A stretch of DNA of 64,000 nt from an uncultured Opitutia bacterium (GTDB taxonomy: Bacteria > Verrucomicrobiota > Verrucomicrobiia > Opitutales > Opitutaceae). The notes under the pieces were generated by a model, which was not told where the DNA came from, made no database searches, and worked only from the letters and a program-made list of their open reading frames with translations. Shown one piece after another: positions 19,427 to 46,233 of this stretch. The stretch lies in the NCBI GenBank assembly GCA_903825285.1, contig CAIJZY010000060.1, positions 1-64,000 on the forward strand, given 5' to 3'. Made by a program: the position numbers and the translations under genes. Within the stretch, counting starts at the first letter, position 1. The number at the start of each line of letters is the position of its first letter.

Positions 19427-19445
19427 GCGCCGCTGGCGCGGCGCA

Positions 19446-19550
19446 GTTGGTGGTTGAAGGTTGAAAATTGAAAGCGGGGCAGAGTCGCGTCGCCGCATGG
19501 CGATGCAGCCGCACGGGTTTTGCTTTCAACCCGCGACATTCAACTTTCAA
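19446..19550. repeat. heptad-repeat inverted element C
   Basis: Left gttggtg-gttgaag-gttgaaa-attgaaa; right ctttcaa-cccgcga-cattcaa-ctttcaa, each in exact 7-bp phase. Confidence 0.8.
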
Positions 19551-19570
19551 CTAGCGGGCGAAGCCCGCTT

Positions 19571-39580: not shown

Positions 39581-40132
39581 ATGAATATCGCCTCGAAGAA
39601 ACTGATCCTCGTCATCGCCAGCGCCGTGTTCCTCCTTGCGGGCTGCAAAAAGAAGCCGGCACGCCCCGATCCGAGCGCGACGGTGCTCGGGCCCACCGGC
39701 ACAGTTTCGCCGGAGACGCTCGCGCCGGCTGCTGATCCGAACGCGGCCGGACTCCAGCAGCGCGACCCGAACATCATCGAGACGGACGACATGATTAAGG
39801 GCCTGCTCGGCGCGGTCTACTTCGACTTCGACAAGTCCAACGTCAAGGAGAGCGAGCGCGCGAAGATCCAGGCCGCGAAGGACTACCTCGCGAAGAACCC
39901 GACGCACCGCATCCTCTTCGAGGGCCACTGCGACTGGCGCGGCACCGACGAGTACAACCTTAGCCTCGGCGACCGCCGCTCCACCGCCGCCAAGAAGTAC
40001 CTCATCTCGCTCGGCGTTCCCGCCGACAAGGTCGAGGCCAACTCCAAGGGCAGCCTCGAGGCCGCCAAGAACGCCGACGACGCGACGATGGCCAAGGACC
40101 GCCGCGCCGAGATCATCGTGCTGAAGAAGTAA
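39581..40132 (+). CDS. pal: OmpA-family peptidoglycan-associated lipoprotein
   Basis: Lipobox LLAGC; OmpA motif VYFDFDKSNVKESERAKIQAA ... FEGHCDWRGTDEYNLSLGDRRS. Confidence 0.9.
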   Translation: MNIASKKLILVIASAVFLLAGCKKKPARPDPSATVLGPTGTVSPETLAPAADPNAAGLQQRDPNIIETDDMIKGLLGAVYFDFDKSNVKESERAKIQAAKDYLAKNPTHRILFEGHCDWRGTDEYNLSLGDRRSTAAKKYLISLGVPADKVEANSKGSLEAAKNADDATMAKDRRAEIIVLKK

Positions 40133-40154
40133 ACTTCCCCCACTCTGCCAAAAA

Positions 40155-40182
40155 GCCCCGGTGCAAACCGGGGCTTTTTTTT
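40155..40182 (+). terminator. rho-independent terminator after pal
   Basis: GCCCCGGT-GCAA-ACCGGGGC followed by eight T. Confidence 0.96.
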
Positions 40183-40193
40183 GGTCGTCCGGG

Positions 40194-40304
40194 CGAACGC
40201 CGAACGCTCAACGCCGCACGCCCAACGTCCTTGTGAATTTCAGCGCGCGGCTAGGCCGCGGGAACGATGCTTCGACGTTCGATGTTCGGCGTTGGGCGTT
40301 CGTC
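40194..40304. repeat. heptad-repeat inverted element A
   Basis: Left: cgaacgc-cgaacgc-tcaacgc-cgcacgc-ccaacgt; right: cttcgac-gttcgat-gttcggc-gttgggc-gttcgtc; exact 7-bp phase on both sides. Confidence 0.88.
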
Positions 40305-40318
40305 CGGAAACGCAATAT

Positions 40319-41692
40319 CTACGGCTGCGCCAGCGCCGCAAGAATTCGCTTCGAGGTCGCGATGCCTTTCTTCATGACCTCGAGGTTGAAGCTCTCGTTC
40401 GGCGCGTGCAGGTTGTCCTGCGGCAGGAAGAGGCCCATCATCACGGAATCGAGTCCGAGCACGCGCTTGATCTCGCCGATGATCGGCACGCTGCCGCCCT
40501 CGCGAAGATAGAGCGGGGCCCGGCCCCAGATCTCGGTCACGGCGGCATCCGTCGCGCGGAACGCCCGTGCCAGCACCGGCGACTGGTCCTTGGGGGTGTT
40601 CGTGCGGTCGGGTGGCACCACCACGTAGGGCTCGCCGCTGTGCCCGGGCACAATTTTCAGGCGCACGCCCTTCGGCGCCCGCGCCTCGATCGCGCTGATG
40701 ACGAGGGCCCGGATCTTGTCGGGCACCTGGTTCGCCACGAGCCGGCACGTGATCTTCACGAAGGCGCGGCTGGGGATCACCGTCTTGCTGCCCTCGCCCT
40801 GGTAGCCGCCGCCAAATCCATTGAACTCCAGCGTCGGGAGGAAGCGCACCGCCTCGAAGGGCGTGATGCCCGGCGGCACGTGAAACGCATCAATGCCGAG
40901 GAATTTCCGGTAGTCCTCCTCCTTCGCCCCTAGCTTGCGCAGCTCCTCGCGCTCCCACGGCTCCACGTCGAGCACGTCGTCATAGAAGCCGGGGATGTTC
41001 ACGCGGCCGTCGGGAGTGTGCAGCGACGCGCACAGCTCGGCGAGCGCCTGGATCGGGTTCAGGAGGACGCCGCCGTGCAGCCCGGAATGCAGGTCGCTGT
41101 TCGGGCCCGTCGCCTCGACCTCGAGCGCCACCAGCCCGCGCAGCCCGGCCGTGATCACCATCTGCTGCTCGTTCGGGATGCCCGTGTCGGAGAGAAACAC
41201 AAAGTCCGCGGACTTCAGCCGCTCGCGGTAGGCGCGGATGAAGGGCCCGAAGCTGGGGCTGCCCATCTCCTCCTCGCCCTCGATCATGAACGTGATCCGC
41301 AGCGGCAGATTCGGATTCTCCTCGAGCAGCTGGCCGACCGCCGTGATGTGCGTCAGGAGCGGTCCCTTGTTGTCGGCCGCGCCGCGACCGTACATGCGGT
41401 TGCCGCGGATGGTCGGCTCGAAGGCCGGCGACTCCCACAGGTTGAGCGGGTCCGCCGGCTGCACGTCGTAGTGGCCGTAGATGATCACGTGCGGCCAGGA
41501 CGCGGGGCCCGGGCGCTGCGCCAGGATGATCGGATGCAGGTCGGTCTTCACCACCTCCACGTCAAAGCCCATCGAGCGGAGCAGGCCGGAGACGAACTCC
41601 TGGGCGCCCCGCATGCCGTCCTTGAACTTGGAGTCGGCGGAGACGCTCGGTTGGCGGATGAATTCCTTCAGTTTTTCAACGGGGTCGAACAT
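40319..41692 (-). CDS. M20-family metallo-dipeptidase/deacylase
   Basis: IIYGHYDVQPADP, YGRGAADNKGPL, MIEGEEEMGSP. Confidence 0.93.
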   Translation of the reverse strand: MFDPVEKLKEFIRQPSVSADSKFKDGMRGAQEFVSGLLRSMGFDVEVVKTDLHPIILAQRPGPASWPHVIIYGHYDVQPADPLNLWESPAFEPTIRGNRMYGRGAADNKGPLLTHITAVGQLLEENPNLPLRITFMIEGEEEMGSPSFGPFIRAYRERLKSADFVFLSDTGIPNEQQMVITAGLRGLVALEVEATGPNSDLHSGLHGGVLLNPIQALAELCASLHTPDGRVNIPGFYDDVLDVEPWEREELRKLGAKEEDYRKFLGIDAFHVPPGITPFEAVRFLPTLEFNGFGGGYQGEGSKTVIPSRAFVKITCRLVANQVPDKIRALVISAIEARAPKGVRLKIVPGHSGEPYVVVPPDRTNTPKDQSPVLARAFRATDAAVTEIWGRAPLYLREGGSVPIIGEIKRVLGLDSVMMGLFLPQDNLHAPNESFNLEVMKKGIATSKRILAALAQP

Positions 41693-45180: not shown

Positions 45181-45189
45181 AGAATCAGA

Positions 45190-45271
45190 CGAACGCCCAA
45201 CACCGAAGCTGATTCCAGCACGCGGCTGGGCGGCAGGAGGAACCTTCGACGTTGGACGGTCGGCGTTCGCC
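45190..45271. repeat. heptad-repeat inverted element B
   Basis: Left cgaacgc-ccaacac-cgaagct; right cttcgac-gttggac-ggtcggc-gttcgcc; core resembles element A. Confidence 0.82.
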
Positions 45272-45283
45272 CGGTGGCCCGCC

Positions 45284-46081: not shown

Positions 46082-46233
46082 GGCTCCGCCAGTCCGCGCC
46101 ATCCGTGCCCAAGCGCCAATCAAAAAAAATACGGAGGCTTTTGGGTCCAGCGCGGAAACGCGGAGGGGCGGAAGCTCGGAAACGGAGGGATCCCTCCGCT
46201 CGCCCGCTCCTCTGCGTCTTCGCGATGAATCCC

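Follow-up and report, generated by a model that had tools for sequence, protein, structure and literature searches.

A dispersed intergenic element with inverted arms of seven-base units in an Opitutia genome and related repeats in other genomes of the phylum

The closest described counterparts of the element analyzed here are the heptamer arrays of Xanthomonas. There, heterogeneous GGGAATC/(GGGANTN)n heptamers form dispersed arrays, mostly of about four units, that are about 90% intergenic and lie nearer to the preceding gene than to the next one; in each genome, 70–75 pairs of arrays are inverted and convergent (Rehm et al., 2015; PMC4692102). The same article points to an excess of heptamers among the short repeats of bacteria, for which no explanation is agreed on. 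The TAACTGA repeats of Beggiatoaceae, Cyanobacteria and Bacteroidetes are also dispersed intergenic heptamers, with a few units per array and a patchy distribution (MacGregor, 2015; PMC4679880).

We analyzed a window of 64,000 nt (the whole stretch of DNA under study, to which positions without another designation refer), for which the original prediction had described five heptads facing five inverted heptads across a core of about 40 bp. A lag-7 scan and the alignment of the units confirmed the period-7 arms, their inverted layout, their coordinates and their phase. The locus, termed element A, comprises 119 bp (40189–40307) and is located between the gene for an OmpA/Pal-like lipoprotein (PF00691, Pfam; stop at 40132) and the convergent gene for an M20 peptidase (PF01546, Pfam; stop at 40319). 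As predicted, it follows the Rho-independent terminator of the OmpA/Pal gene (40146–40182, plus strand), which lies just outside the element and is kept in 10 of the 11 congeners without it. Read from the outside to the inside, each arm consists of a terminal heptad, CCGG(G/A)CG, followed by units that conform to AAC-R-Y-Y-S. On the left, the arm begins with CCGGGCG (40189–40195, plus strand; family consensus YCRGRCG) and continues with the five heptads AACGCCG, AACGCTC, AACGCCG, CACGCCC and AACGTCC (40196–40230, plus strand). The core (40231–40272, plus strand) has a length of 42 bp and contains a GC hairpin, CGCGGC-tag-GCCGCG. The right arm, on the minus strand, has four heptads (40273–40300; reverse complement, from outside to inside, AACGCCC, AACGCCG, AACATCG and AACGTCG) and ends, according to the terminus alignment, with the heptad CCGGACG (40301–40307, minus strand, reverse complement). 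Hence, the predicted five heptads were found on the left, whereas on the right there are four units plus the terminal heptad; the right arm is one unit, exactly 7 bp, short of the family norm, because most copies have five. A second copy of the same family (45185–45274, plus strand) has two left units, four right units and the same type of core.

In an autocorrelation scan, the best two lag-7 places of the 64-kb window were the two arms of element A. They scored 43.6 bits (left) and 41.3 bits (right), compared with 21.2 bits for the best single arm after the window had been shuffled 150 times (order-2 Markov), and none of the 150 shuffled windows contained a facing pair of arms. The strict heptad pattern AACRYYSAACRYYSAACRYYSAAC had 42 exact matches in the genome versus none for the reversed control. 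Within 311 kb of the genome, 42 lag-7 arrays were observed versus 0.7 expected; this sequence was partly picked around known copies, so that the value is not a genome average and the unbiased figures on the excess are the window scan and the pattern count. Lags of 4, 5, 8, 10, 11, 13 and 16 were at background in the same 311 kb, and the other enriched lags were multiples of 3, reflecting coding sequence, or of 14. The genome search for an excess over shuffled sequence, by which the original prediction could have been refuted, thus did not refute it. Relatedness between copies is not taken into account by the shuffles behind the family statistics.

Element A also proved to belong to a repeat family. 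BLAST searches with it revealed copies on many contigs, and the search matches and fetched stretches, which yield lower bounds, comprise at least 22 distinct two-armed copies at unrelated sites in the genome, together with solo arms. The copies are 90–158 bp long; about 20 of them, with similar cores, could be aligned through the core, and one core (L002) carries a paired change, GTGGC/GCCAC, in its hairpin. When 59 arms of this genome were aligned at the terminus, YCRGRCG was common to both arms, and conservation dropped abruptly from 0.4–1.7 bits on its inner side to about 0.1 bit immediately beyond it. The units vary, and the gaps between copies within the arms are exactly 7 bp, in line with the predicted degenerate arms that keep their period. 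Solo arms are common and have no partner within kilobases in the stretches around copies. In five genome groups, the two-armed copies have nearly always one polarity, with the left arm first (LR) in 69 cases and the reverse order (RL) in two. Most of the 42 called elements are intergenic, usually at most about 30 nt from a stop codon and nearer to the stop than to the start; the underlying gene calls were simple ORF and GC3 calls, so that the placement is approximate. Among the 31 elements from all genomes with both neighbors called, the neighbors are convergent in 10 cases, co-directional in 18 and divergent in three. On another contig of the same genome (L118 990–2363; G000:C46), genes for GNAT, VOC/glyoxalase and pentapeptide-repeat proteins (Pfam) are flanked by a solo left arm on one side and by a two-armed element on the other; three congeners (G004, G006 and G007) have just 9–16 bp at this position.

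The nearest precedent named in the original prediction was the heptanucleotide STRR repeats of cyanobacteria. STRR heptanucleotides, as in Calothrix (cited in PMC4692102), consist of seven-base units in tandem and are not known to form inverted arms with defined ends. The likeness to element A extends to the seven-base tandem units; however, the units of an STRR array are near-identical, whereas here an exact period goes together with degenerate units whose order depends on their position. The sharp arm end and the position-specific order also distinguish the family from simple STRR/SSR arrays. The TAACTGA repeats differ in having near-exact units, in being almost always direct, and in being located upstream of starts rather than behind stops (PMC4679880). 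The closest system in print is that of Xanthomonas (PMC4692102): degenerate 7-bp units, dispersal, a location nearer to the preceding gene than to the next, intergenic convergent pairs (here 69 LR versus two RL) and a purine-rich strand in the 5' arm are found in both. The Xanthomonas unit, however, is G-quadruplex-forming and comes from another phylum, and no fixed terminal heptad, position-specific order of units or core is described in the part of the article consulted. As the unit sequences are unrelated, the two kinds of inverted array work alike rather than being proven kin. The suggestion that an inverted-arm form with a conserved core might be undescribed therefore does not hold as a whole, given the 70–75 convergent pairs per Xanthomonas genome mentioned above: inverted degenerate heptamer arrays were already known. 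In our literature search, no paper was found that describes the heptad sequences of the family of element A.

The syntenic intergenic regions of congeners were compared, as the original prediction had proposed. The flanking genes of both window sites are present in 12 of the 12 genus genomes searched. At site A (40189–40307), with synteny kept, an element of this heptad family is missing in 11 of 11 congeners, and at the syntenic site B (45185–45274) it is missing in nine of the nine congeners examined. The congeners are about 80–85% identical, and their intergenic regions have diverged too far for an empty site to be defined to the exact base. These are the sole empty sites found; none was found inside other repeats. 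The spread of the element is therefore well supported, in contrast to the mechanism of its movement.

We lean towards the reading that element A, with its defined ends, multi-copy spread, family-wide arm consensus, absence at both sites in the examined congeners and location at the 3' ends of genes, represents a dispersed, MITE-like and non-autonomous element with heptad arrays as end repeats. The single polarity of the two-armed copies, the five-unit mode and the positional code shared with a genome of another family, the combination of the same arms with unrelated cores in the congener G008, the 7-bp indels between copies and the very high copy number in G273 also speak for this reading. Like MITEs, the elements are shorter than 600 bp, multi-copy, intergenic and non-coding, have terminal inverted repeats with a defined end, and are absent at syntenic sites, although not base-exactly. 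Unlike in MITEs, the terminal repeats are heptad arrays, and no target-site duplication was detected at any length or offset tried; no register of 2–12 bp rose above permuted flanks. Some transposase types leave no target-site duplication. No autonomous partner, long arm-gene-arm copy or linked transposase was found in about 300 kb read around copies in this genome or in 421 kb of G273, a genome of another family; a 600-bp L-R spacing on contig C62 of G273 was rejected as a composite copy, because the two arms there are unrelated. These negative results, together with the lack of a base-exact empty site and the common solo arms, count against the MITE-like reading, and so does the existence of further, unrelated heptad families that are laid out in the same way, each of which would need a cognate enzyme if the arms are read by sequence. 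The element thus works like a MITE but is not classified as one here.

In the MITE-like reading, the arms would be terminal inverted repeats of about five 7-bp units each, bound as an array by a putative recombinase or transposase encoded elsewhere, and the whole element would move as a unit into intergenic DNA, with inserted elements surviving mostly behind stop codons. Slippage might add or remove single heptads inside the arms, so that the period of 7 is kept while the letters drift, and the core would be cargo that is freely replaced between species. Alternatively, the arrays might have originated locally, through replication slippage or through copying from a hairpin template, without dedicated mobility; inverted arms would then be produced by fold-back template switching, and similar sequences would be spread by recombination. 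Variable unit numbers, 7-bp indels, long pure arrays such as the 26 GAACATC units of G236 (L264) and the presence of several unrelated heptad sequences with the same layout in one genome would all fit such an origin. We nevertheless regard it as unlikely, because the terminal heptad common to the copies lies outside the arrays, the core is shared by copies at unrelated sites, the position-specific order of units is common to two families, and partner arms resemble each other in sequence identity no more than arms taken from different copies do, which local templating would not give.

The latter result also bears on the possibility that the element is a 3' UTR RNA, either a bidirectional terminator or an mRNA-stabilizing hairpin, that is kept by selection. 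The location of the elements shortly after stop codons, in many cases with convergent neighbors, and a single-strand fold below that of shuffles (z of −2.6) are consistent with such a function. However, arms of the same copy do not pair better than arms of different copies (duplex energy, p = 0.17), covariation contributes next to nothing to the consensus fold (0.05 kcal/mol), the element has not been kept at the window sites in any congener examined, and site A already has a terminator, all of which makes an RNA element quite improbable. An Rfam search returned sub-threshold matches only, mostly on the pal terminator. Because partner arms do not co-vary, pairing is not the conserved property of the arms. 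The lack of additional likeness between partners, the unimproved pairing energy and the near absence of covariation suggest that the arms are an array read by a protein rather than a hairpin under selection.

Intergenic location, dispersal, palindromic structure and high copy number are shared with REP, BIME and REPIN elements. In this genome, though, no REP palindrome is present at the ends, outside the terminus, and the arms consist of seven-base units. We consider it very improbable that the element is a REPIN mobilized by a RAYT (Y1 transposase), with the heptads as a spacer. Many copies in G273 are indeed flanked on one or both sides by an outward REP-like TTAAGTTGACGCGCATGCCC (L188, L196, L199, L201–L203 and L208), and one RAYT locus of that genome (L208) has a similar TTAAGTTGACGCGCATGCCC site about 150 bp from the Y1-transposase gene. 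Yet across seven high-copy genomes heptads occur near only two of 30 Y1 loci, which both belong to the genome in which heptads are most numerous, and the three Y1 genes of the present genome have their own, different palindromes, without heptads. A link to RAYT/REP was therefore rejected for the Y1_Tnp genes of this genome and the seven high-copy genomes, and the original statement that the element is not REP-like held. Also in G273, an insertion sequence that is IS3-like by eye, with a first ORF beginning MSTVMRYSEAFKLQVIREVESGR, lies directly against a heptad element, at the CGTTCG end of the latter, in four of the four copies seen (L284 7133, L293 120 and 8911, and L294 5550). Some insertion sequences target REPs (PMC1525189), and by analogy this one may target the ends of heptad elements.

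The units, RYYSAAC/GTTSRRY, are also close to the boxes of integron attC sites, with the same polarity and the same location behind genes. attC boxes have the consensus RYYYAAC/GTTRRRY. Across the phylum, IntI and heptads co-occur (58 genomes with both; odds ratio 5.9, and 3.4–5.6 after a size split), an association that may, however, reflect lineage or lifestyle, and the above-mentioned group of GNAT, VOC and pentapeptide-repeat genes, which is enclosed by heptad arms and missing in three congeners, also speaks for an attC-like site. We give this explanation hardly any credence: at the TIGR02249 cut-off, IntI was found neither in the genus (this genome and 11 congeners) nor in G273, the genome richest in copies; heptads do not cluster around intI, 18 of 20 intI windows being without them; and position 4 is G in about half of the cases, off the attC consensus. 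In addition, each arm has five tandem RYYSAAC units instead of a single outer pair of boxes. As the genus has no IntI, the attC likeness and the IntI association are only a lead.

Of 394 genomes searched in the phylum, 104 contain the heptad pattern, with the maximum, up to 644 overlapping matches, in G273, where many copies are located at contig breaks. Five units per arm is the mode in three genome groups. A positional code, compared in one genus and G273, is common to both: unit 2 is AACAT, unit 4 ends in C and unit 5 is AACGTCG. In the congener G008, the same arms enclose cores that are unrelated and for the most part longer, in about a dozen two-armed copies, and arms but not cores recur between the genus and G273. 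The conserved part is therefore the arms, and the conserved core of the original prediction applies to the copies within the present genome but not across congeners. The exact core pattern had four matches in named genomes, three without heptad arms and one with a weak two-unit match, which we take as chance. In G236, a 26-unit GAACATC array adjoins a nine-fold tandem array of whole two-armed elements with a unit of about 111–118 bp (L264 17205–18915).

Inverted heptad arrays with unrelated units and other cores were also detected in the present genome and in G008, namely GTAGCGA, GTTGAAA, CAAGTGA, GTCAGAG, TTTACGA, GAAGTTC/GGAGATC and GGTATTC. One of them lies in the window (19443–19555), where GTTGAAG/GTTGAAA faces TTTCAAC/TTCAACT across a core with a CGTCGCCGCATGGCGATG hairpin; the layout is that of element A and the letters differ. 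In the clear pairs of these other alphabets, the purine-rich strand is found in the 5' arm, which is also the case for the GGGAATC pairs of Xanthomonas. Possibly, if doubtfully, all these arrays represent a phylum-wide mobile class with a five-unit heptad code that would be read by a putative modular DNA-binding recombinase, with several independent alphabets (GTTCGGC, GTAGCGA, GTTGAAA, GTCAGAG, CAAGTGA and TTTACGA) coexisting in one genome and the Xanthomonas heptamers as a distant example. Such a class, if real, would explain the over-representation of heptamers among bacterial short repeats. Independently of this, the period of 7 is linked here to a single architecture of inverted five-unit arms with fixed ends and one polarity behind genes, across a phylum and in several unrelated unit sequences, so that its cause can be sought in whatever binds or moves these arms. 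Arms with a fixed number of five units, defined ends, a distribution across the phylum and the common construction of several unrelated heptad families go beyond what was described before; for annotators, the family is one that at present carries no label and that breaks the assemblies of high-copy genomes.

The two window sites hold other repeats in some congeners. At site A, G007 has GTAGCGA heptads with inverted arms (L107/L097), and at this site and at site B of G008 (L110) and G003 (L115), GTAGCGA inverted heptads and period-9 arrays of CACGAAGNN were observed. A purine-rich stretch of the window (46151–46186; GCGGAAACGCGGAGG...) has many recurrences in most congeners and is another dispersed repeat.
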